DNA of 64,000 nt from a virus. The notes beneath the pieces are model-generated. The model did no database searches. It was given only the letters and a program-made list of their open reading frames with translations, and had not been told where the DNA came from. The stretch covers positions 1 to 64,000 of IMG/VR virus record IMGVR_UViG_3300028043_000001; one strand, 5' to 3'. Positions 3,446 through 61,719 of the stretch are shown piece by piece; the stretch's first letter is position 1, and each line of letters begins with the position of its first letter. The position numbers and the translations under genes are program-made.

Positions 3446-3650
3446 GAAAAAAATTGAAAAAATGGCCAGGGATTTTCATAAAGCCCTCATGAGGGCCCAG
3501 GTTCCTCACTTTATTTCTATAGCAATAGGTGATGATCAGCTCGATCTTGCGGCTGGTGATGATCCGGAACAAGTGTTTGAGATGCTCCAAGGCGCCTGTG
3601 CCGACTTCAGAGAAAAGCACCCCCAGAAATGCAAGTTCAAGTTACATTGA
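3438..3650 (+). CDS. Small hypothetical protein (70 aa)
   Basis: The ATG at 3438 sits in the end of the previous gene with GGAGAGAGGG upstream. An earlier in-frame start at 3255 would lie deep inside that gene and was not used. It is a lysine-rich helix followed by an acidic stretch (GDDQLDLAAGDDPEQVFEML). Unknown function. Confidence 0.6.
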   Translation: MDEKKIEKMARDFHKALMRAQVPHFISIAIGDDQLDLAAGDDPEQVFEMLQGACADFREKHPQKCKFKLH

Positions 3651-3802
3651 TAATCCAAACCGGAGATGACTCATTTCTCTATCGCCTCTACGTGGGGTTT
3701 TGGCGTGAGATGAGATTAGGGGCTATGGTAGAAATGGAGGTTGATTATAGGTACGGCGGGTTTTATTTACGCGGTGTTGACCTTGGGGTGCAAGCAGGGT
3801 AA
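3629..3802 (+). CDS. Small hypothetical protein (57 aa)
   Basis: The frame starts 22 bases before the previous stop and ends one base before the next ATG. The product (MQVQVTLIIQTGDDSFLYRL...) alternates hydrophobic and polar residues like a small beta sheet. Unrecognised. Confidence 0.45.
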   Translation: MQVQVTLIIQTGDDSFLYRLYVGFWREMRLGAMVEMEVDYRYGGFYLRGVDLGVQAG

Positions 3803-4250: not shown

Positions 4251-4392
4251 GCAACTAAATTGACACCCCCTTACTTTTTTTCAGCCAAAAAATAAGCCTT
4301 TTAAAAAGCCTAATTGAGCAATTAAAATTATTAAAGAATTAGTTTTGGGGTCTAAATGCTTCACCCTAGAGGGATTTTTAAGGAGGTAAGCA
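3978..4392 (+). other. Intergenic stretch without a plus-strand gene
   Basis: No credible plus-strand frame occurs here. Bases 3978-4250 may belong to the minus-strand signal-peptide frame. Bases 4255-4392 are AT-rich and contain the recurrent element at 4303-4333, a direct repeat of AAGCCT, and the AAGGAGGT ribosome site for the next gene. The end of this stretch is probably a promoter region. Confidence 0.6.
4303..4333 (+). promoter_or_regulatory. Recurrent AT-rich intergenic element, copy 1
   Basis: AAAAAGCCTAATTGAGCAAT continuing as TAAAATTATT nearly matches the element at 54322-54352 (about 25 of 30 positions) and resembles 5354-5378 and 21422-21448. It lies about 60 bases upstream of the gene at 4393. 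A promoter or operator is inferred. Confidence 0.5.
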
Positions 4393-4569
4393 GTGAGAAC
4401 TTTAATCACTATCCTCTTGTCTATCGCTGGTGCGCGCCTCATTTCTGCATTTATTGAGGGTTATTTCGAGAACAGGAAACGTTTATCCCGCACACTAATT
4501 GACGGAACTGAAAATTGGCAACAGGTGAGGAGGGCTTTACGGCCTCCCCAAAAAAACAATCAAGCTTAG
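4393..4569 (+). CDS. Small protein with N-terminal hydrophobic helix (58 aa)
   Basis: GTG start with a perfect AAGGAGGT site. The product MRTLITILLSIAGARLISAF is hydrophobic and then becomes strongly basic (ENRKRLSRT, VRRALRPP), as in a membrane-anchored small protein. It is the first gene after the recurrent element. Function unknown. Confidence 0.55.
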   Translation: MRTLITILLSIAGARLISAFIEGYFENRKRLSRTLIDGTENWQQVRRALRPPQKNNQA

Positions 4570-4578
4570 GAGACCTCC

Positions 4579-5127
4579 ATGCACAAAGCACAGACTAATG
4601 ATGTGGTCAAGATCAACAATAAGTTCCTAGCTCGGGCGATTGCCGTTGCACTGGCTGAGGAGTTGGACCCTGAAGGGAAATATGGTCTTGTGGCCGCCCT
4701 TCCAAAAGCAATGATGGAGGGCAAAAAAGACGACTACGATCCTGTGAGTGAAAGGGTGGTAATTGAAAACCCAGAAAAAACTGTACCTGTTAGTGTGGCC
4801 ATCGCCTTAGTTGGACAGGCTGCAGTCAAGATTGCTGAGGAGATGGAAATTGAAGACCTCGAAGCCGCGATGACCTTACGTACGTCTGCGGCAGATCTCG
4901 CGAGGAGCAGTTTGACGTGTTTGCATTGGCGCGAGCTAGCAAATCATACTGGTTGGAGTAAAAGAGACGGCAAAGTTGTAGGGGTTGCCATCTCTCATGG
5001 ACGACAGGAGAAGCTCAAGTGGGATATCCAGCGGGCGGTTTTTTCTGCCTTGGGGGTAAAAACAATCAAAGATATCCCCAAGGCGTTGGACAAATTTGCA
5101 GATGTAATGGACAAGGAAGGAAGGTGA
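4579..5127 (+). CDS. Hypothetical protein (182 aa)
   Basis: A clear TAGGAGACCTCC site precedes the ATG. The protein is mostly helical, alanine-rich and charged, with no signal peptide or membrane segment. Segments such as VSVAIALVGQAAVKIAEEME suggest amphipathic helices. No family was recognised. A 20-residue membrane peptide follows three bases after its stop. Confidence 0.7.
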   Translation: MHKAQTNDVVKINNKFLARAIAVALAEELDPEGKYGLVAALPKAMMEGKKDDYDPVSERVVIENPEKTVPVSVAIALVGQAAVKIAEEMEIEDLEAAMTLRTSAADLARSSLTCLHWRELANHTGWSKRDGKVVGVAISHGRQEKLKWDIQRAVFSALGVKTIKDIPKALDKFADVMDKEGR

Positions 5128-5130
5128 GAA

Positions 5131-5193
5131 ATGGAAGGCCTTGTGGTTATCTTTCTTGTTGGTTTAATCGTTCATGCATTTCTAACCTCTTAA
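5131..5193 (+). CDS. Tiny membrane peptide (20 aa)
   Basis: MEGLVVIFLVGLIVHAFLTS is one hydrophobic helix. A strong GGAAGGAAGGTGAGAA site sits just upstream. It belongs with the similarly tiny single-helix peptides at 21722 and 31026. Too short for homology; the translation signals are the support. Confidence 0.5.
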   Translation: MEGLVVIFLVGLIVHAFLTS

Positions 5194-5226
5194 ATATGTG
5201 AGCGTCAGTTTGTGCAGAATGGCCTA

Positions 5227-5286
5227 GGGTTAAGGGGTGGTATAAATTCGGGAGATACTGGCTATGTCTTTCGCCCACCCCTACCC
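5227..5286 (+). other. Hairpin upstream of the ubiquitin-like operon
   Basis: GGGT-TA-AGGGGTGG (5227-5240) pairs with CCACCCCT-ACCC (5275-5286): 12 base pairs with a two-base bulge, closing a 34-base loop. There is no T-run, so it is not a simple terminator. It may separate transcripts or act as a leader structure. The rest of 5194-5481 holds no gene. Confidence 0.5.
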
Positions 5287-5353
5287 TGCTTTCTGTTGGA
5301 AAAAAGGGAAACTAACCGTCCTCGTCTTATAACCGCCCTTTAAAAATTTCTAT

Positions 5354-5378
5354 CCAAAAATTAAGCAGTTAAAAATCC
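5354..5378 (+). promoter_or_regulatory. Recurrent AT-rich element, copy 2, upstream of ubiquitin-like operon
   Basis: CCAAAAATTAAGCAGTTAAA followed by AATCC resembles the elements at 4303 and 54322 (shared AATTrAGCArTTAAAA). It lies about 100 bases before the first gene of the conjugation operon and may be its promoter. Confidence 0.45.
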
Positions 5379-5481
5379 AAAATCCATCATTTAAAATTAA
5401 AAAATAAGGATGAAGAAAGAATAACCATTTGGGGTGAGGTATGCCAAGTCAAAAAGTTAAAGTAGTAGGGAGGGTCACATC

Positions 5482-6237
5482 TTGCAATCGGTTTTTGTAA
5501 AATGTAGGAGTGTGGAAGAGCGCGACCAGATGCTCGAATTTCTGGAAAGGAACTTTCATGGTTTCAGATTTGAGGGTAAACTGCTCCGAATAGAGGGCCC
5601 CACTAAGACGCCGAAGGGGCTCGGCCGCACCCGAAAGCCCTCGATAGGTTTTGACTATGTAGAAGATCTTGGTTATTACTGCGCTCGGGGCTTATGTTTA
5701 TGGATAATGAGAATGTTGGACCTTCGCGAGGTTCAGGATTACGACGGGCCAATCCCTCTCTCTTTATCTCATGCCTTCATTTATAGCCCCCCTTCGATGA
5801 CAAGAAGGAAAAGGTGGGGAGGGACTGGGTCTATGTTAGCTTCCCCGGACTATGTGAAGATCGTGGTAGGTGAGTTGGAAAGGTTAACAAATGCCTGGTT
5901 TCTGGAAAAAGGTTCTAAAGATTGCTTGCTCCCGGAGGACGAAGAAAAGGCAATTTTGAAAATTCCTGAGGTTAAGAAGATTTGCAACGGAGGCAACTAC
6001 GTAGCTATACAGTGTAAGATAGGTAGATTTGATCCCCCCTACTGGCTCTTGCTAAAGGTTCGAGGGCCGGGTTCGCGGTTTAGGATTTTTGGCCCTCGAG
6101 TACCGTTCAGCTCTTGGACGGGGTTTGTTTGCCTGGGAAATATGAATAGGGGGCTGTCTCACTATTTGCGAGAAGGGGATTTTGCTTTGGCTACTACTTT
6201 GCTGGTCAGTTTTATCAAGAAGGCTAGGAGGGAATAA
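5482..6237 (+). CDS. E2-like (ubiquitin-conjugating-fold) protein, first of two
   Basis: TTG start after AGGGAGGGTC. The C-terminal part (residues about 160-251) resembles the E2-like protein encoded at 6869: VCLGNMNRGL around Cys217, then an acidic-helical tail (HYLREGDFALATTLLVSFI), matching ICGGNLSPGM and LVMEQDFLNATAVMIRFL. In phage and plasmid E2-like families this Cys follows the last strand and is the presumed thioester site. The HPH(I/V) motif before the Cys is missing here (it reads SSWTGF), so activity is less certain than for the second copy. Residues 1-150 are unrecognised. It is the first gene of the coupled operon; its stop overlaps the next start (TAATG). Confidence 0.6.
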   Translation: MQSVFVKCRSVEERDQMLEFLERNFHGFRFEGKLLRIEGPTKTPKGLGRTRKPSIGFDYVEDLGYYCARGLCLWIMRMLDLREVQDYDGPIPLSLSHAFIYSPPSMTRRKRWGGTGSMLASPDYVKIVVGELERLTNAWFLEKGSKDCLLPEDEEKAILKIPEVKKICNGGNYVAIQCKIGRFDPPYWLLLKVRGPGSRFRIFGPRVPFSSWTGFVCLGNMNRGLSHYLREGDFALATTLLVSFIKKARRE

Positions 6238-6872
6238 TGTTTTTTGTGAAGGCTTCTTTGAAGGTTATAAAAGATAGAGGTGTTAAATTTAAAGGGGGAA
6301 GATTGGCATGTAAAAAATGTCATGATCCCATCTTGTTTGCGACCGCAAAAATGAGGCTTTTTGGTGCAAACGGCGATGGTACAGTTTTTGATTCTCACGG
6401 ATTTATTGACTTAGCCTACCTTTTTTGTTCAAAATGTGATGGTGGTGAAGTTTATTCGTGGTCAATATGGCCAGGTGGTATAGCTTACGAGAATGAAGTG
6501 GTATTAGTAGACGGAAATTTTGGGCGGCACATTCCTGAGGTAGACCCCGCAAAGGTTTTAATTGGTGACTTCATAGGGGAAAACTTGGAGGGGCTGAAGT
6601 GGCGTTGTCGTGACCTTCGAGAAGTTGAGGACTTCGATAGGGGTCTCAAGCTCTTTGTCACAAAATATAATACCCCCAAAGGTCGAGCCGAGCTAATGCG
6701 AATCGGTGAGGAGCAAGAGGAGCACCAGCGGGGTTTACGAATTTTGGCAGAATGGCAGCAACGTCGCGAGGAGATAGGAACTGCGCTAGAGACTCCTAAA
6801 AAAGGAAAAGTTACGGTTGTGGTGCAGGATGAATGTGGTTGTAAAAGGAAGATTCGTGAGGTGAAAATATGA
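6237..6872 (+). CDS. Cys-pair (treble-clef or ribbon-like) protein between two E2-like genes
   Basis: This 211-residue protein has C-x2-C at residues 25/28 (LACKKCHD) and 64/67 (LFCSKCDGG), spacing that could bind one zinc, and a third Cys cluster near the C-terminus (DECGCKRK). Residues 130-190 are helical and charged. Overlaps join it to E2-like genes on both sides (TAATG and ATGA). Its position suggests an accessory or E3-like adaptor, but that is inference; no RING pattern is complete. Confidence 0.6.
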   Translation: MFFVKASLKVIKDRGVKFKGGRLACKKCHDPILFATAKMRLFGANGDGTVFDSHGFIDLAYLFCSKCDGGEVYSWSIWPGGIAYENEVVLVDGNFGRHIPEVDPAKVLIGDFIGENLEGLKWRCRDLREVEDFDRGLKLFVTKYNTPKGRAELMRIGEEQEEHQRGLRILAEWQQRREEIGTALETPKKGKVTVVVQDECGCKRKIREVKI

Positions 6873-8011
6873 AATTTCGTGTGCAAGGAAGGGGTGACTA
6901 CCTCGAGATGTGGGATGTGATGCTTCCCCTTTTGGAGGGATTCGCTGCGAAGATCGAAAAGCACATTAACGTTCTTAACTTTCACGGCTCAAAATCATCC
7001 CCCCTAGAGGTTAAGAAGGGTGAAATCAACCTCTATTTTTGGGCTTGTCCTCCAGGGGTGGAGGCCGATAGTGGAACTCTCGAGAGGGTTTTTGGCCTCA
7101 CTCTGACTGGCGGGATGAGGGATTCTTACATACCTCAATTTGTTCCGCAAGATTATATTCAGATTCTTGATGAGGATACACCGGTTGCTTTGATCAGTAA
7201 ATCGTCCCCGGAGGTTTATGTCCTCTTCGATCTCCCTCATAGAGCCCCAGAAGAATTAACCAGGGAGGTTTTGGGTGATCTCTTGAGGCTCCTCTTGCAA
7301 GAAGCATGTATCGCAAAAGCGGAGAACCCGGAGGATGAATCTCCCGAGTCGCGGTTTGTGCAAATTTGCAATGCTTGGCGCACAAACAGGAGGAAAGAAT
7401 CTGAGTCAAAAATCCGGCGGAGTGAGCGGAGAATCAGGGAAGTACTGGAGGAATTACAAGTACAGAGACGTCGATTGGAAGAAGAAAGATTGCTCCACGC
7501 TGGTTTACTAGAATCTCTAGAACAAAGGGAGGACGAGTTTAGAAAAATGTTTAAGGGAATTTTAGAAATTAAGGGGGTAGAATGGGTTGAGGTTACTGAG
7601 AAGGGCGTGAGTGTTTTTACTGATATGATCTACCTGGATTATGCTGGGCGCTCCTATAAAATTGGGAAATTCAAAATCACCTTTGGGGAAGAGAATCCGA
7701 CGCCTGACGTTATAAACCTTTTAAATGAGAAAATTACGGGGCAGAAGTACTTCCACCACCCACATATATTTGGGGACCGTGTCCCTAAAATTTGTGGAGG
7801 GAACTTGAGCCCCGGGATGGAAAAGCTAGTTATGGAGCAGGACTTTTTGAATGCAACGGCGGTTATGATAAGATTTCTCCGCACTTTCAACCAGAGTTCC
7901 CAATATGTAGGGTGGCTGAAGAGCAATTGGGCTCCCGAGCCATTCCCGGAAAAGGGGAAGGGGAAGGTAAAGGTAAAGGTAAAGGAGAAGGTAGAGGAGG
8001 AGGACTTATGA
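6869..8011 (+). CDS. E2-like ubiquitin-conjugating-fold protein with coiled coil
   Basis: The 380-residue product has an unassigned N-terminal domain (1-165), a charged coiled coil (about 175-225) and an E2-like C-terminal domain (about 228-355). The last contains strand segments ending YFHHPHIFGD (HPHI at 297-300), the presumed thioester Cys309 in PKICGGNLS, a helix MEKLVMEQDFLNATAVMIRF, and a final FNQSSQYVGWLKSNW. HPHI...C-x-G-N followed by a helix and a YN-x-S-x-Y block fits prokaryotic E2-like proteins next to JAB and ThiF genes. The extreme C-terminus is low-complexity Lys/Gly/Val from a purine-rich tract (7947-8003). The ATGA overlap couples it to the JAMM gene. Confidence 0.75.
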   Translation: MKFRVQGRGDYLEMWDVMLPLLEGFAAKIEKHINVLNFHGSKSSPLEVKKGEINLYFWACPPGVEADSGTLERVFGLTLTGGMRDSYIPQFVPQDYIQILDEDTPVALISKSSPEVYVLFDLPHRAPEELTREVLGDLLRLLLQEACIAKAENPEDESPESRFVQICNAWRTNRRKESESKIRRSERRIREVLEELQVQRRRLEEERLLHAGLLESLEQREDEFRKMFKGILEIKGVEWVEVTEKGVSVFTDMIYLDYAGRSYKIGKFKITFGEENPTPDVINLLNEKITGQKYFHHPHIFGDRVPKICGGNLSPGMEKLVMEQDFLNATAVMIRFLRTFNQSSQYVGWLKSNWAPEPFPEKGKGKVKVKVKEKVEEEDL

Positions 8012-8592
8012 AGGCTACTGCACCACAAAGTCTGCGAGTTTTAATTCCTTTGGAGGTGAAGCATCGACTTGATCTGTACATTCAATGCAGTCCCCTTGAA
8101 ATTTCTGGGTTGGGGGAGGCAGTTTTAATTGAGGACAACGTTTTTTACATTAAAAACGTTTTTATCTTACCCCAAACAGTTTCAGCGGCGTCCACATACC
8201 TTGCTGTTCCTGCGGTAGGACAATTTTTGACCCAATTAATCCAGGAGGGGCGCGATCCCGAATTAATAAAGGTTTGGTGGCATTCACATGCTGACATGGG
8301 TTGCTTCTGGTCATCGATTGACGACTCCACAATTGAAAAATTCAAAAATGAATGGATGATTGCAATCGTGGGAAACCATCATGGGGAATATAAAGTTCGA
8401 GTTGATCTTTACTCACCGGTTCGAGTTGTCATAGACGACCTCCAATTGGAGGTCGTCGTAGATGACCCTGATGAGGAGATGAGAGCTGAGGTGGAAGCTG
8501 AAATCGCTGCGAAGGTAATTCAGGCCCCCCTTCCCCCTGCTGTGGGCTTTAATTGGAGAAAATCTAAGTGGACGGAGGGTACTTGGCTATGA
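8008..8592 (+). CDS. JAMM/JAB-family isopeptidase (deubiquitinase-like)
   Basis: The start at 8008 overlaps the E2-like stop (ATGA) after GGAGGAGG; the longer frame from 7792 lies inside that gene. The 194-residue protein has the full JAMM zinc site: Glu31 in LEISGLG, His92 and His94 in WWHSHADMG, Ser102 and Asp105 (H-S-H-x7-S-x2-D). Such enzymes cleave isopeptide bonds C-terminal to ubiquitin-like Gly-Gly. Since the local UBL already ends in Gly-Gly, removal from targets is the likelier task. The coding DNA contains a 24-base perfect palindrome (8434-8457) and a shorter inverted repeat near 8140-8165. Confidence 0.9.
   Translation: MKATAPQSLRVLIPLEVKHRLDLYIQCSPLEISGLGEAVLIEDNVFYIKNVFILPQTVSAASTYLAVPAVGQFLTQLIQEGRDPELIKVWWHSHADMGCFWSSIDDSTIEKFKNEWMIAIVGNHHGEYKVRVDLYSPVRVVIDDLQLEVVVDDPDEEMRAEVEAEIAAKVIQAPLPPAVGFNWRKSKWTEGTWL
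8434..8457 (+). repeat. 24-bp perfect palindrome inside the JAMM gene
   Basis: GACGACCTCCAA is followed directly by its reverse complement TTGGAGGTCGTC, encoding DDLQLEVV. It could form a hairpin in mRNA or a cruciform, or bind a dimeric regulator. It may be chance from codon choice. Confidence 0.6.
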
Positions 8593-9242
8593 TGGATTTC
8601 ATGAGACAGTTAGGCATCTTAGCTCCCCCAGAACATTTAAATTTCCCTGTTTCTGTGGTCGGTTGTGGGGGTATTGGTTCTCCGACAGCTTTAGTGCTCG
8701 CCAAAATGGGGTGCACTGATATAACGGTCTACGATTTCGATCATGTAGAGGAGCACAACCTGCCCAACCAACTTCACAAACTGTGCCATGTTGACCGCCC
8801 AAAGGTGGTAGCGGTGGCCAATGTTGCTAAGGAGTTTGCTGGAGTAAAGGTTAAAACCAAAGAAGAGAGCGTTGGCGGTGAGCACCAGTTATCGGGAGTG
8901 GTTATTTCGGGTGTTGATACAATGGAGGCCCGCCGCGAGATTTGGAAAGCGGTAAAATATAACCCCCAAGTTCATCTGTATATTGATGGTCGCATGGGGG
9001 CTGAAGTTTGCAGAATTTACTCAGTGTGGCCAATTGATCCCGAAGATGTGCGTCGTTATGAGGCCTCGTTATATTCTGACGAGGAGGCTTTAGAGCTGCC
9101 GTGTACAGAGAGGGCAATTATTTACAACGTCTTTGTTGTTGCGGGTTTAATTGGTAACCAGGTTAAAAAGTATGCAAAGGCGGAGCCTTTCGCAAAAGAG
9201 GTGATTTTAGACCTCGTCTCGCTCACCCTAATTACCGTTTAA
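8589..9242 (+). CDS. E1-like ThiF/MoeB-family adenylyltransferase
   Basis: ATG 8589 overlaps the JAMM stop (ATGA); GTG 8568 is the longer option. The 217-residue protein is a lone Rossmann adenylation domain: SVVGCGGIGSPTALVLAKMG (GxGGxG ATP loop), ITVYDFDHVEEHNLPNQL (Asp and Asn-x2-x-Q nucleotide contacts), YIDGRMGAE, and LPCTERAIIYN with Cys172 as candidate catalytic cysteine. E1-like enzymes adenylate the C-terminal Gly of a UBL and form a thioester. No rhodanese or C-terminal ubiquitin-fold domain is attached. In this operon it should charge the UBL encoded 17 bases downstream and pass it to the E2-like proteins. Confidence 0.9.
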   Translation: MMDFMRQLGILAPPEHLNFPVSVVGCGGIGSPTALVLAKMGCTDITVYDFDHVEEHNLPNQLHKLCHVDRPKVVAVANVAKEFAGVKVKTKEESVGGEHQLSGVVISGVDTMEARREIWKAVKYNPQVHLYIDGRMGAEVCRIYSVWPIDPEDVRRYEASLYSDEEALELPCTERAIIYNVFVVAGLIGNQVKKYAKAEPFAKEVILDLVSLTLITV

Positions 9243-9258
9243 AAAAAGGAGGAGTGGC

Positions 9259-9465
9259 ATGAAAACTGTTAAGGTTGCAAAGTTGGGAGCACCGAAGAAG
9301 GATGTCATTCTCGAGGTGCGGGCTACGATTAGAGACGTTCTCAATGAAGCAGGGTTGGATCCGGGCGGATTTGAGGTTCTTCTCAACGGCAAGGAGTCTA
9401 AACTCACCAGCTTCGTTGAGCCTGGGGATATTGTTGTTTTGGTCCCTCAAATTCGGGGAGGGTAA
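9259..9465 (+). CDS. Ubiquitin-like (beta-grasp) protein with free C-terminal Gly-Gly
   Basis: Sixty-eight residues after a strong AAAGGAGGAG site. The order of segments (strand VKVAKL, strand DVILEV, helix TIRDVLNEAG, strand GFEVLLNG, turn, strand DIVVLVPQIRGG) matches MoaD/ThiS/ubiquitin beta-grasp folds, and it ends Arg-Gly-Gly-stop. The exposed tail is what an E1 adenylates. It differs from plain ThiS/MoaD by its company of E2-like and JAMM genes. It is the last gene of the operon. Confidence 0.85.
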   Translation: MKTVKVAKLGAPKKDVILEVRATIRDVLNEAGLDPGGFEVLLNGKESKLTSFVEPGDIVVLVPQIRGG

Positions 9466-9483
9466 CTCCTCAATCATAAAAAA

Positions 9484-9538
9484 AGGAGGTTGATAGGGGG
9501 CGTCGCCTCCAAAAGCGCGCCCCCTATATCCGAACATG
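9484..9538 (+). promoter_or_regulatory. Ribosome site separated from its start codon by a hairpin
   Basis: AAAGGAGG ends about 46 bases before the ATG at 9536, which has no site of its own. Between them ATAGGGGGCG (9493-9502) pairs perfectly with CGCCCCCTAT (9518-9527), extended by CGC/GCG with one bulged base. Folding leaves about 11 unpaired bases between GGAGG and ATG, a normal spacing. A similar arrangement is known for T4 gene 38. Alternatively CCTCC in the loop could sequester GGAGG. Confidence 0.6.
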
Positions 9539-9814
9539 AGAGATTACAGTAAACCTCATATCATAGAAGAAGGCTTCGCCTTCTGTTTCTCCTGCAATAC
9601 TTATACCTTTAATCGTCATATACAGAAGGTAGGAGTTCGACGTTATCTTGATATGGAAATCATTGTACCTGAAATGGTGTACGTCTGTATGGAATGTCTT
9701 GAAGAAGTTTCTTGGTATAAAAGAGGAGATTATGATGACATGCTAGCTCTGTACCAGATCCACGCGGAGCTCCTAAAAAGGAAAAATAGATTCAGTGGCC
9801 CCGTCAATGAATAG
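9536..9814 (+). CDS. Small protein with two Cys pairs (92 aa)
   Basis: The product begins MRDYSKPHIIEEGFAFCFSC and has YVCMECLEEVSWY about 40 residues on, so one zinc site is likely. The remaining tail is helical. Its ATG depends on a ribosome site across a hairpin. A stem-loop lies after its stop. Function unknown. Confidence 0.7.
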   Translation: MRDYSKPHIIEEGFAFCFSCNTYTFNRHIQKVGVRRYLDMEIIVPEMVYVCMECLEEVSWYKRGDYDDMLALYQIHAELLKRKNRFSGPVNE

Positions 9815-9824
9815 ACTTCCGTGT

Positions 9825-9888
9825 CTTGAAACTCTCTTAAGACTTTTCTTTTTAAGTAATAGGTTTAAGTCTTAAGAGTTTTTACAAG
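9825..9888 (+). terminator. Stem-loop after the zinc-site gene, possible terminator
   Basis: CTTGAAACTCTCTTAAGACT (9825-) pairs with AAGTCTTAAGAGTTTTTACA (9867-) apart from a two-base bulge; the arms span 9825-9845 and 9867-9888. The right arm carries a run of T. It probably ends the upstream transcript. Bases 9889-9952 show no gene. Confidence 0.5.
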
Positions 9889-9952
9889 ACTAATTGACAG
9901 CAAAACAGCGGAAAAAAACTGACCACCCCATAAACTGGGAGTTGATGAAAAA

Positions 9953-10126
9953 ATGTTGCCGTTAAAATTTTTGGTGACCACGCTTTGCCTATTTCTTTCA
10001 GCAGCATTTTTAACCGCGGCCCCCGTCTTTCTAGACTTATTTGGGGATGAGGTTGCTTATATGCAATGTCTAGGTTTAAGTTTACTCCTTGCAGTAGTAG
10101 GTATATACGTTTGGGGGGTACTCTAA
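9953..10126 (+). CDS. Small two-helix membrane protein (57 aa)
   Basis: MLPLKFLVTTLCLFLSAAFL and LGLSLLLAVVGIYVWGVL are two hydrophobic helices around an acidic loop. The stop overlaps the next ATG (TAATG). Unknown function; holin-like size but without evidence of lysis. Confidence 0.5.
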   Translation: MLPLKFLVTTLCLFLSAAFLTAAPVFLDLFGDEVAYMQCLGLSLLLAVVGIYVWGVL

Positions 10127-59064: not shown

Positions 59065-60256
59065 ACATCCAATTGGTAAACTTAGTAAAGGGGCAGTTCT
59101 TGATATAGGTTTGAAGTGTCCCCACAGTTGTGCCTTCTGTTACTATTCATATTTGAATGGTGAAGATGAGCAGTTTTACGGCATCCGTCACTCATCTTTT
59201 CGCACTCCCCAAGAATGCACCGCAATTTTAGACCTCCTCAAGCAATCAAAGTTTCTTAACTTTGATATCACTGGTGGCGAACCAGTAGTCCATCCAGGTA
59301 TTGTTGAGATTGTTCAACATTCGACCGAGCTCAGCCTAGCATCTCGCCTGATTACTCTAGGCCAGTTTTTGTTTGTTGATAATTTAATTGATAGGTTATT
59401 AGACGCAGGATTAACAAATTTCCTTTTCTCTGTCCACTCTCCCAATAACAAGACTGCTCAAAGTTTGACGGGCGCAAAGCTAACCAAAATTTTAGAGGCT
59501 TTTGACTTCCTGGACGCCCTTGATTTTTCTTACTGCACAAACACCGTTATTACTGATTTCAATTTTAAAGACTTGCCTGCCCTCGCTTCCTTATTTACCC
59601 AGCACAACGTTTACCACTCCAGCTTCATTTACATGAATCCCCACTACGGCTGGCAAGATCTGTCAAGAACGGATACCCTCTTTAAGTTGCTCGCGAGACA
59701 CTCCGATATTCAACCATTTATAGTTGAGGCGGTGCAGATCTTGGAAGCCAGCAAGATCGCGGTCAACTTAAGATATGCTCCAATGTGTACTGTGAAAGGT
59801 GTAGAGAAGAATATGGTCGGCGTTGTAGGAGTACGCTACGACCCCTACGAGTGGATGAATCAAGGTGGACATCTTGGTGGAGACCCAACCTCTTGCGCAA
59901 CCCCTAACAGGATCGTAGAAGGTGATGTGGAGCCTAATTTCCGCCTGGAGCGGTTTTCTGCCCCTATTCAATTCCTTGACTTTGCAGTTATTGGTAGACG
60001 CAGTGATTTAAGGTATTTTCCTTTACAATGTGGTGAATGTGGTATGATCGAAGTATGTGATGGCGTCCATGGTCGTTATTTGCAAAAGTTTGGTGCAGCA
60101 GAATTTTCCCCCTTTCCCGAGAGGGAATTAGGCTTTCCCATTCATGCAGCGAGGGCACAATATTTACCTCCCTTCATTGTTAAAACCGAGCAATTTGAGA
60201 ACATGAAGGCACTTCTGACCGCGGAGTTCGACGAGTGTACCCTAGAGTCTCCGTAA
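59057..60256 (+). CDS. Radical SAM protein with C-terminal Cys cluster (399 aa)
   Basis: ATG 59057 overlaps the previous stop; TTG 59051 is an alternative. DIGLKCPHSCAFCYYSYLNG has the C-x3-C-x2-C cluster site; DITGGEPVVHPG the GGE motif. A C-terminal CGECGMIEVCDGVH may bind a second iron-sulfur cluster, as in SPASM-type proteins. Neighbours suggest sugar or glycan modification. Confidence 0.85.
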   Translation: MYRHPIGKLSKGAVLDIGLKCPHSCAFCYYSYLNGEDEQFYGIRHSSFRTPQECTAILDLLKQSKFLNFDITGGEPVVHPGIVEIVQHSTELSLASRLITLGQFLFVDNLIDRLLDAGLTNFLFSVHSPNNKTAQSLTGAKLTKILEAFDFLDALDFSYCTNTVITDFNFKDLPALASLFTQHNVYHSSFIYMNPHYGWQDLSRTDTLFKLLARHSDIQPFIVEAVQILEASKIAVNLRYAPMCTVKGVEKNMVGVVGVRYDPYEWMNQGGHLGGDPTSCATPNRIVEGDVEPNFRLERFSAPIQFLDFAVIGRRSDLRYFPLQCGECGMIEVCDGVHGRYLQKFGAAEFSPFPERELGFPIHAARAQYLPPFIVKTEQFENMKALLTAEFDECTLESP

Positions 60257-61719
60257 TTATTCCATGCTTTAACTACGGATTGTTTCTCACTAACGCAATT
60301 CAGAGTGCCCTGTTGCAAACTTTGCCAAACTTTGAGGTCATTGTGGTTAACGATGGCAGCACTGACAACTCCTTAGAAGTAGCTCAGGGTTTTGAGTCAG
60401 ACGCTCGTGTCAAGGTAGTGGACCAACCAAATAGTGGCACGCCTGCTATTTCCCGAAACAGGGGCGCTCTTCATGCACAAGGTGATTATTTCGTTTTCCT
60501 CGATGCGGACGATATCCTTGAACCCGATGCTCTGAGAGAGTGGTCTACTTTCCTCAATCAACACCCCGAAATTTCTTTGGTCTACTCTGATCGCTTTGAC
60601 TTGCACAGCGATGGCTCAAAACACTACATCCATTTTCTGGATTGGAATACTGAGCGACTCAAAATTCCCCTCAACTTGTTTTCATATTGTAACATGATGC
60701 GTCGCAGTTTGTGGGAGGCGATCGGGGGTTTCCGTACAAACGTTCATGGGGTTGAGGATTGGGATGCCTGGGTAGCAATGGTCTCTCGAGGGCTTGTCGG
60801 ATATAGAATTCCGAAGCCGTTATTTACTTATCGAGTAAAAGAGGTAGGGGTTTTTCAGGATGTTGTACGTAATGAAGAGTTAAAAAAAGCACTCGTTATT
60901 GTGAATAACGCCGAGTTGTTTTCGGAAGAGGGCATCAAAGCTGCCAAAAACGTAATACCGAGAAACGTTGTGCAGCCCCTTGTTTCAATAATTATTACGA
61001 CCTTCAATAGACCTGAGCTAGTAAAAAGAGCAATTTGTAGTGCTCTCACTCAGACATACCGGAACATCGAAGTTATCGTTGTAAATGATGCGGGGTGTGA
61101 CATTAGCCCCCTAATTGAGTCTATCAATCGGAGTAATTTAAAATATATTACTCACGAGACTAACATTGGAATATTATCGGTTACGCGTAATAGTGGAATT
61201 GCCCAGGCCAAAGGTAAGTACATTGGGTTTCTCGACGACGATGACTTCCTGTATCCCCACCACGTAGAGTTTTTAGTGGAAGCTTTAGAAGCAGACTCCT
61301 CTCTTGGAGCTGCTTATTCGGACGGTATTTTTAGTGAGGTTGATTTTGTGAACAACATTCCCGTTATTAGAAACCAGTTTCGCACCCAGCATATCGATTG
61401 GCGGTCGAATATCTTTTTCGAAAATAATATAAGCCCCGTGACTGCATTTTTAGTTAGGAGAGAAGTTCTCGACGAAGTGGGCCTTTTTGATCCTCGACTA
61501 GGCATCAACGAGGATTGGGAACTTTGGATCCGTATCGAAAAGAACTTTCCCTTCAAGAGAGTCCCCAGAACTACCTTTGAAGTGGTTATTCCTGTTGAAA
61601 GTTGGAATTCCCCTACACGTAAACTTGTCCGCGAAAAGTTTTTACTGGGGGCAGCTCAAATCTTTAGGGAGGAGCATGGTAAGGATTTGGAGTATGTTTT
61701 AAAAATGTATGGTATGTAG
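60235..61719 (+). CDS. Tandem GT2 glycosyltransferase (two GT-A domains, 494 aa)
   Basis: Domain 1 (about 1-220): SVIIPCFNYGLFLTNAIQSA, VVNDGSTDNS, FLDADDILEPDA. Domain 2 (about 245-480): VSIIITTFNRPELVKRAICS, VVNDAGCD, FLDDDDFLYPHH and NEDWELWIRIEK. Both have DxD-type motifs. Two-domain enzymes often add alternating sugars, as in chondroitin or hyaluronan synthases. GTG start overlaps the radical SAM gene. Confidence 0.85.
   Translation: MYPRVSVIIPCFNYGLFLTNAIQSALLQTLPNFEVIVVNDGSTDNSLEVAQGFESDARVKVVDQPNSGTPAISRNRGALHAQGDYFVFLDADDILEPDALREWSTFLNQHPEISLVYSDRFDLHSDGSKHYIHFLDWNTERLKIPLNLFSYCNMMRRSLWEAIGGFRTNVHGVEDWDAWVAMVSRGLVGYRIPKPLFTYRVKEVGVFQDVVRNEELKKALVIVNNAELFSEEGIKAAKNVIPRNVVQPLVSIIITTFNRPELVKRAICSALTQTYRNIEVIVVNDAGCDISPLIESINRSNLKYITHETNIGILSVTRNSGIAQAKGKYIGFLDDDDFLYPHHVEFLVEALEADSSLGAAYSDGIFSEVDFVNNIPVIRNQFRTQHIDWRSNIFFENNISPVTAFLVRREVLDEVGLFDPRLGINEDWELWIRIEKNFPFKRVPRTTFEVVIPVESWNSPTRKLVREKFLLGAAQIFREEHGKDLEYVLKMYGM

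Follow-up and report, generated by a model that had tools for sequence, protein, structure and literature searches.

Ubiquitin-like conjugation in prokaryotes is discussed as an anti-phage defence, represented by the BIL and CBASS systems, or as plasmid baggage. In the BIL system (BilABCD), the E1, BilD, is a long protein of two domains that includes a Cys domain, a CEHH motif marks BilB, the tag BilA is a di-UBL, and the JAMM protein matures the ubiquitin-like protein (UBL) (PMC11354881). According to the work of Hor 2024, as relayed in PMC13288928, BIL conjugates its UBL and thereby interferes with virion assembly. The CBASS protein Cap2 unites E1 and E2 in one polypeptide, and its tag is cGAS (PMC10097602). 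UBL-like and JAB domains are found in the phage tail proteins TAPI/TAPK (PMC1779556).

Layout and products of the operon

Reading of the open reading frames in the bacterial virus record IMGVR_UViG_3300028043_000001, whose first 64,000 nucleotides form the window analysed here, placed a six-gene operon on the + strand at 5482-9465, with the following features:

Gene A: 5482-6237, + strand; TTG start, 251 aa; putative divergent second E2-like protein
Gene B: 6237-6872, + strand; 211 aa; CxxC-pair protein
Gene C: 6869-8011, + strand; 380 aa; predicted E2 ubiquitin-conjugating-like enzyme
E2 domain of gene C: 7478-7930, + strand; aa 204-354; HPH at 297-299; putative catalytic Cys309 at codon 7793-7795
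Gene D: 8008-8592, + strand; ATG start, 194 aa; predicted JAMM isopeptidase
Gene E: 8589-9242, + strand; 217 aa; predicted E1-like adenylyltransferase
Gene F: 9259-9465, + strand; 68 aa; predicted ubiquitin-like beta-grasp protein ending Ile-Arg-Gly67-Gly68

The joins are as originally described, namely TAATG at 6235-6239 and ATGA at 6869, 8008 and 8589, with gene F starting behind a ribosome site (AAAGGAGGAGTGGC-ATG). The claim that the operon is preceded by its own control elements was not borne out, as the 11 promoter-like sites counted in 4300-10000 do not exceed chance (7.7 +/- 2.4 expected). The operon is situated within a region of small genes, and its GC content and codon usage equal those of the remaining phage (r 0.92). 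Searching the record identified the carrier as a tailed phage with terminase (1e-61), portal (6e-77) and head protease (6e-26) genes; neither a tyrosine integrase nor a large serine recombinase was found in this possibly incomplete record, in line with the apparently lytic type that had been proposed.

Gene E is the sole operon product to score over a curated Pfam cut-off (ThiF, E = 4e-20). It displays the adenylation residues GxGGIGS, D49, D51, N57, Q61, K72, D110 and R115, and its catalytic residues fall in columns conserved across 67 phage E1s, Cys172 (codon 9102-9104) being kept in 65 of these proteins. As first proposed, its product is predicted to be an E1-like adenylyltransferase, with ATP-site and catalytic Cys residues intact. 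Gene D contains every residue of the reported E/HxH/S/D site (E31, H92-S-H94, then seven residues, S102 and D105). Alone, it matched Prok-JAB under the Pfam curated cut-off (E = 0.005); as a profile together with four relatives, it matched RPN11 (6e-6), CSN5 (9e-6) and JAMM1 (6e-5), pointing to a JAMM isopeptidase with an intact site.

Gene F, which matched SAMP2 (E = 0.001) and ThiS (E = 0.012) under the curated cut-offs, belongs to a phage UBL family of 25 matches recovered by a family search. The family alignment supports the 68-residue beta-grasp protein originally described, but the significance given to its Arg-Gly-Gly end was over-read: the relatives end mostly in K-G-N, and also in K-G-E, K-G-A or K-G-G-C, most of them being devoid of a terminal GG, so the conserved glycine lines up with Gly67 and not with the terminal Gly68. 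We regard gene F as a predicted beta-grasp-like UBL with a C-terminal Gly. Two IMG/VR loci (L010 and L011) harbor tandem UBLs.

No family was found for gene C by direct search of Pfam, NCBIfam, PHROGs and PADLOC, nor for genes A and B in these collections, and single-sequence searches of IMG/VR returned no relative of genes C and B and no close one of gene A. The gene C family nevertheless comprises 40 phage matches, and the Cys is present in every match covering that site; across a 37-member E2 alignment, C309 and G311 are invariant and P298/H299 are conserved at 90% or above. The protein consists of an N-terminal region, a long coil and the C-terminal E2 domain. Cropping was required, since the full-length AF2 model had a poor N-terminus and its fold search was uninformative. 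The cropped domain (aa 204-354; pLDDT 83.7, pTM 0.76) was modelled in the order helix, beta strands, HPH/C, helices, which corresponds to E2 topology. By Foldseek, the best PDB match was a bacterial E2 and was not significant; the best matches (all at E > 0.1, those to E2s at 0.17 and above) include the bacterial E2 8tz0_C, UbcH10, UbcH7 and Atg10, and 6 of the best 22 among 350,542 PDB chains are E2 or E2-like. No PDB or viral fold matched at E <= 0.001, and comparison of the E2 profile with PDB sequences was uninformative (UBE2W only, E = 0.5). Taken together, the invariant Cys309, the modelled topology and the non-significant fold match suggest that the gene C product is probably an E2. When three E2 proteins of the HPH type were compared by tblastn with 50,697 phage records, nothing matched, so this type of E2 seems absent from cultured phages.

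The C-terminal ~85 aa of gene A are homologous to the E2 domain of gene C (BLASTP 8e-7; E2-family HMM 4e-6), and gene A appears to be its divergent paralogue. In the alignment it keeps Cys217 (codon 6130-6132) and has GPR where His-Pro-His is lost. The notion of two E2-like proteins thus applies unequally, with HPH...C complete in gene C and only the Cys-x-Gly part kept in gene A. Gene B corresponds to the predicted Cys-pair protein, with CxxC at C25/C28 and C64/C67 and a CGC close to the C-terminus; it had no relative in the phage family or IMG/VR searches, and is possibly a zinc-binding accessory protein.

Recurrence of the module among phages

The distribution of the module was assessed on distinct E1 loci having at least 6 kb on both sides (n = 29). 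Within these, (i) a JAMM gene is adjacent in 28, (ii) an E2 in 26, (iii) a UBL in 27, and (iv) E1, JAMM, E2 and UBL occur together in 25. Conversely, 67 of 70 JAMM matches and 44 of 45 E2 matches lie at an E1. Distances among the E1s run parallel to those among the E2s and the JAMMs (r 0.74-0.88), with none of 2000 permutations reaching such values. The carriers amount to dozens of other phages, relatives of the crAss gut phages included: publicly available ones are crAss-like and Flavobacterium phages (FpV4, Dulem virus 41, bajarodcaudo virus 1), and IMG/VR phages carry further modules of the lineage (L006-L015 and L040-L063). All share with the present operon the conserved E1 residues, an adjacent JAMM, a CxG E2-like protein and a UBL-like protein. 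The crAss-like group differs in two proteins, one of them carrying HSH...CxG and the other being a UBL that continues past K-S-G into a fused C-terminal extension, whereas the operon described here encodes its 68-aa UBL as a separate protein, together with two E2-like proteins and the gene B product. In the public carriers, the E1 is annotated as 'thiamine biosynthesis protein', 'ThiF' or 'E1 enzyme family'.

Since gene sets of this kind are found in dozens of phages, the operon is not a product of chance; from these sequence comparisons, it appears to belong to a lineage widespread among phages rather than to be an isolated oddity. Ubiquitin-like tagging, so far known chiefly from defence operons of bacteria and from plasmids, thus seems to be in the possession of viruses as well. 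Searches of the open PMC literature found no description of a phage E1/E2/JAMM/UBL system, although a passing mention in subscription papers is possible, and the 2021 survey of crAss-like phages (PMC7886860) is silent on ubiquitin, ThiF and JAB. If many phage groups do keep a distinct lineage of this kind together as one unit, phages themselves would run such a pathway, and how E2-dependent conjugation evolved could be tested directly, as could a possible mechanism of phage takeover. Cultured phages of Flavobacterium and Bacteroides that carry the crAss-like version provide laboratory access.

Proposed cycle, role and alternatives

As originally predicted, UBL, E1, E2 and JAMM are all present in the phage with the catalytic residues for conjugation and deconjugation, and the operon quite probably encodes such a cycle, conjugation by its products being likely. 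Judging from the intact active sites and from homology, the E1 (gene E) would adenylate the UBL (gene F) at its C-terminal glycine, and the UBL would move to Cys172 of the E1 and next to Cys309 of the E2 (gene C), perhaps with the assistance of the second E2-like protein (gene A) and the zinc-like gene B product. The UBL would then be attached to target proteins through their amino groups, and the JAMM (gene D) would take it off again; in relatives with residues past the conserved glycine, the JAMM probably also matures the UBL. Against such a cycle stand the scores of the UBL and JAMM, which taken alone fall under the Pfam cut-offs, the lack of an HPH motif in gene A and of a relative of gene B, and the fact that no E3 was recognised.

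Most likely, the cycle would modify proteins of the host or of the phage early in infection or while DNA is replicated. The genes neighbouring the relatives' modules (primase, DNA polymerase, uracil-DNA glycosylase, exonuclease, SNF2 helicase) make a part in early takeover or in replication more likely than one in virion maturation. More tentatively, and with slightly less than an even balance in its favour, we propose a separate old phage lineage, spanning crAss-like and many uncultured tailed phages, that tags host or phage proteins in replication; some members (this operon, L010 and L011) would use a two-E2 relay, and for Lys-Gly-Asn UBLs either the JAMM would trim a single residue or the E1 would activate the Asn end. 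MccB activates the Asn end of microcin C7.

Exclusion of rival phages, one of the functions first suggested, or blunting of host defence, in which competitor or host virion or defence proteins would be tagged in a reversal of BIL/CBASS-like logic, is possible though rather unlikely. The bacterial relatives do act against phages (PMC10097602; PMC11354881) and PADLOC E1-E2 models match the E1 part, but only that part, no PADLOC model having matched the E2, JAMM or UBL of the operon. Furthermore, the operon contains no effector or CD-NTase, and the module is common to many phage groups, where it lies beside replication genes and in no obvious accessory defence island.

We consider improbable a sulfur-carrier or cofactor route, whereby gene F would be a ThiS/MoaD/Urm1-like carrier, gene E its adenylyltransferase and gene D a product-releasing JAMM, as in CysO/Mec+. 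SAMP and Urm1 have a known dual use, and the closest curated models are indeed ThiS/SAMP2/MoaD for the UBL and ThiF/MoeB for the E1. However, the E2 found in nearly all full loci and the rarity of a GG end among the relatives' UBLs speak against this route, as does the absence from the phage record of rhodanese and Aminotran_5 (cysteine desulfurase family). Gene E is, in addition, devoid of the CxxC pairs of E. coli ThiF/MoeB, and phage E1s stand apart from ThiF, MoeB and PRTRC in the E1 tree, which tells against activation of the ThiF/MoeB type.

Equally improbable is that the cycle matures or decorates virion proteins of the phage itself, an idea for which the reported action of BIL on virion assembly (Hor 2024 via PMC13288928) and the TAPI/TAPK proteins of phage tails (PMC1779556) offer precedents. 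This became the least favoured of the functions first suggested, since more than 60 kb separate the operon (5-9 kb) from the packaging and head genes (terminase, portal and head protease, at about 71-87 kb) and replication-type genes adjoin the relatives' modules.

Comparison with known systems

Capture of the PRTRC plasmid system by the phage is very improbable, for although the E2-JAMM-E1 gene order is shared and the E1s (hhalign 4e-27) and, weakly, the JAMMs (7e-4) are homologous, the UBL and E2 align with PRTRC C (E 0.83) and PRTRC B (E 0.35) at the Cys motif only, gene E scores 39.9 bits with the PRTRC_ThiF model against a cut-off of 144.75, ParB_N is absent from the phage record, and the phage E1s form a separate branch. 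The likeness to PRTRC resides in the component set (C as UBL, B as E2, A as JAMM and ThiF as E1) and in a Lys/Arg-Gly near the UBL end.

With BIL, the operon has UBL, E2, JAMM and E1 in common; it falls outside that system by the size of its E1 (217 aa), by its E2 motif, where C309 is followed by GGN without the CEHH spacing, and by its single UBL. The CBASS Cap2/Cap3 and 6A-MBL E1-E2 systems share E1, E2 and JAMM activities with the phage set but unite E1 and E2 in a single protein, whereas here E1 and E2 are separate genes, the tag is a beta-grasp protein and the operon has no CD-NTase or MBL partner, which sets it apart from both CBASS type II and 6A-MBL. The archaeal SAMP/UbaA/HvJAMM1 system, which requires no E2, resembles the phage operon in its minimal ThiF-type E1, its JAMM and its small UBL.

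Operon and host genome

The original prediction of a complete phage-borne ubiquitin-like conjugation operon named six genes, all of which were found in place:

5482-6237, + strand, gene A, TTG start, divergent E2-like protein
6237-6872, + strand, gene B, CxxC protein
6869-8011, + strand, gene C, E2-like protein
8008-8592, + strand, gene D, JAMM protein
8589-9242, + strand, gene E, E1-like protein
9259-9465, + strand, gene F, ubiquitin-like protein (UBL)

As predicted, the genes are joined by TAATG (A/B) and ATGA (B/C, C/D and D/E), and a strong AAAGGAGG site lies upstream of F. The operon start proposed at 5354 includes AT-rich non-coding DNA, and the operon's supposed own control elements were not borne out, since promoter-like matches in the region are no more than chance. 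From GC content (46.4% versus 45.3%) and codon usage (r = 0.92 versus the phage's large genes), there is no sign of recent import. Just 3' of the operon, window positions 9536-9814 encode a small Cys-rich protein with two CxxC pairs and weak PHROG matches to function-unknown families.

The host genome is that of a tailed phage. The window itself encodes a DNA polymerase, a DnaB-type helicase and SbcC; the rest of the 116,436-base IMG/VR record encodes a terminase large subunit (1e-61), a portal (6e-77) and a head maturation protease (6e-26). Neither a tyrosine integrase nor a large serine recombinase was detected, leaving no sign of lysogeny in this record, which may be incomplete. Outside the window, an ORF of more than 4,134 residues (L071:33-12437; record 104033-116436) runs past the record end. 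Several glycosyltransferase-like proteins (window 60235-61719; L070:12234-14651) possibly modify phage DNA or the host surface.

Predicted conjugation proteins

Protein E is, by its sequence, a predicted E1-like adenylyltransferase, as had been proposed: it matches ThiF (4e-20), G25, G27, D49, D51, N57, K72 and D110 are invariant in phage E1s (n = 67), and 65 of the 67 retain C172. The JAMM site of D is likewise complete (E31, H92, H94, S102, D105), and a profile built from D and four relatives matched RPN11, CSN5 and JAMM1 in a PDB search. F belongs to a family of small phage UBLs and resembles SAMP2 and ThiS, with scores under curated cut-offs.

C matched no database family, while an iterated HMM search across related loci gave 40 matches; an alignment of 37 sequences shows no variation at C309 and G311 and very little at P298-H299. 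The AlphaFold2 model of residues 204-354 (pLDDT 83.7, pTM 0.76) shows a helix, beta strands, a His-Pro-His loop, the Cys and helices, following one another as they do in the E2 fold. Its top Foldseek PDB match was 8tz0_C (E = 0.17), the E2 component from an E1-E2-Ubl complex of bacterial origin, and UbcH10, UbcH7 and Atg10 were among the first 22; these model-based matches are supportive of the predicted E2 fold, but none fell below 0.001. The last ~85 residues of A are common to C (BLASTP 8e-7; family HMM 4e-6), and A retains Cys-Leu-Gly-Asn but not His-Pro-His. B carries two CxxC pairs, and has no relative in the HMM search of related loci or in the IMG/VR search.

Relatives and UBL tails

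Relatives comprise 63 loci from an IMG/VR scan with an E1 alignment, crAss-like and Flavobacterium phage records, and ten contigs from GTDB genomes, nearly all metagenome-assembled. Among E1s flanked on each side by 6 kb or more (29 of 62 distinct), 28 had an adjacent JAMM, 26 an E2-like protein, 27 a UBL and 25 all three, counts that apply to this E1 clade, through which all loci were collected, and not to every phage E1. Conversely, 67 of 70 JAMM matches and 44 of 45 E2 matches lie beside an E1. The E1, E2 and JAMM distance matrices correlate, though genes within one phage have a common history anyway.

Two E2 types were found: (i) HPH/NPH...CxG, in the window and relatives L002, L006-L015 and L040-L063, and (ii) HSH...CxG, typical of crAss-like and Flavobacterium phages. 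Between the two types, the profiles could be aligned nowhere but at this motif (hhalign P = 0.011; reversed control 0.75). In the E1 tree, a branch (97/91) parts phage E1s from PRTRC, ThiF and MoeB, and the HSH group forms a clade (100/99); the window E1 is deep-branching, nearest to that of contig L073 (46% over 107 columns). That contig stops within its E1, directly upstream of which lies a RadC-type JAB protein (L073:4555-5049; 3e-41). The window's E2-JAMM-E1-UBL order recurs in L010, L011 and L012. L010 and L011 also have a pair of E2-like proteins, of which one shows HPH or APH and the other a degraded motif; the window is therefore not the only locus with paired E2s.

One subgroup of the UBL module appears to carry a reverse transcriptase 3' of E1. 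It was detected in L002 (4029-5165; RVT_1 4e-23, also scoring with PADLOC RT_II-A models), L042 and L058, and is assigned from size and place only for the ~380-aa ORFs after E1 in L040, L044, L045, L048, L050, L051, L054, L056, L059 and L063. Also 3' of the module, the L002:5462-8284 product (Pfam RdRP 5e-10, DWDGD motif) resembles YonO/QDE-1 RNA polymerases; similar ~945-aa ORFs occur in L042, L045, L050, L054 and L056.

Stand-alone UBL relatives most commonly end in K-G-N, others in K-G-N-K, K-G-N-G, K-G-N-L, K-G-E, K-G-A or K-G-G-C; a second class ends in A-D-N-A-A or A-D-G-A-R, and crAss-like UBLs continue past K-S-G. From these tails, the conserved glycine corresponds to window Gly67, and the final residue is variable. 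Two UBL domains are fused in L011:4720-5223 (each domain ending in K-G-N) and in L010:7772-8263 (each ending in Ser-Ala-Ala), which suggests polyprotein processing and, in L010, a non-glycine end. Extra UBL-like paralogues with other tails lie next to the main UBL in some loci (L033:5990-6205; L035:6228-6617; L043:3286-3504 and 3516-3770).

The tails may belong to precursors trimmed by the JAMM protein, as BilC acts on BilA (PMC11354881). Alternatively, the terminal residue itself may be activated. MccB, matched as an E1 relative (1.6e-4), activates a C-terminal Asn, so this could apply to the KGN members. The window UBL, with Gly-Gly, fits the classical route, trimmed or not.

Proposed cycle, role and known systems

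From the observed gene content, residues and linkage we infer each chemical step of the most likely cycle: F would be adenylated by E, passed to C172 of E and then to C309 of C, and finally joined to a target lysine, from which D would remove it, with A and B as putative accessory proteins. A sulfur-carrier role for F and E is disfavoured by the lack of rhodanese and Aminotran_5 matches across the 116,436-base record. Neighbours in relatives include primase, uracil-DNA glycosylase, exonuclease, dUTPase, DNA polymerase A and SNF2 helicase, and the window operon lies in a small-gene region far from the head genes; by inference only, this context makes early takeover or replication a likelier role than virion maturation.

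In the open-access literature, to which the search was confined, we found no description of a phage-owned E1/E2/JAMM/UBL set. A 2006 paper (PMC1779556) described bacterial operons with UBL, JAMM, E1 and E2, as well as UBL/JAB domains in tail proteins of phages, and BIL and CBASS are characterised systems (PMC11354881, PMC10097602). The features tested exclude PRTRC, BIL and CBASS as the identity of the window operon, which we file as a phage lineage of ubiquitin-like conjugation.
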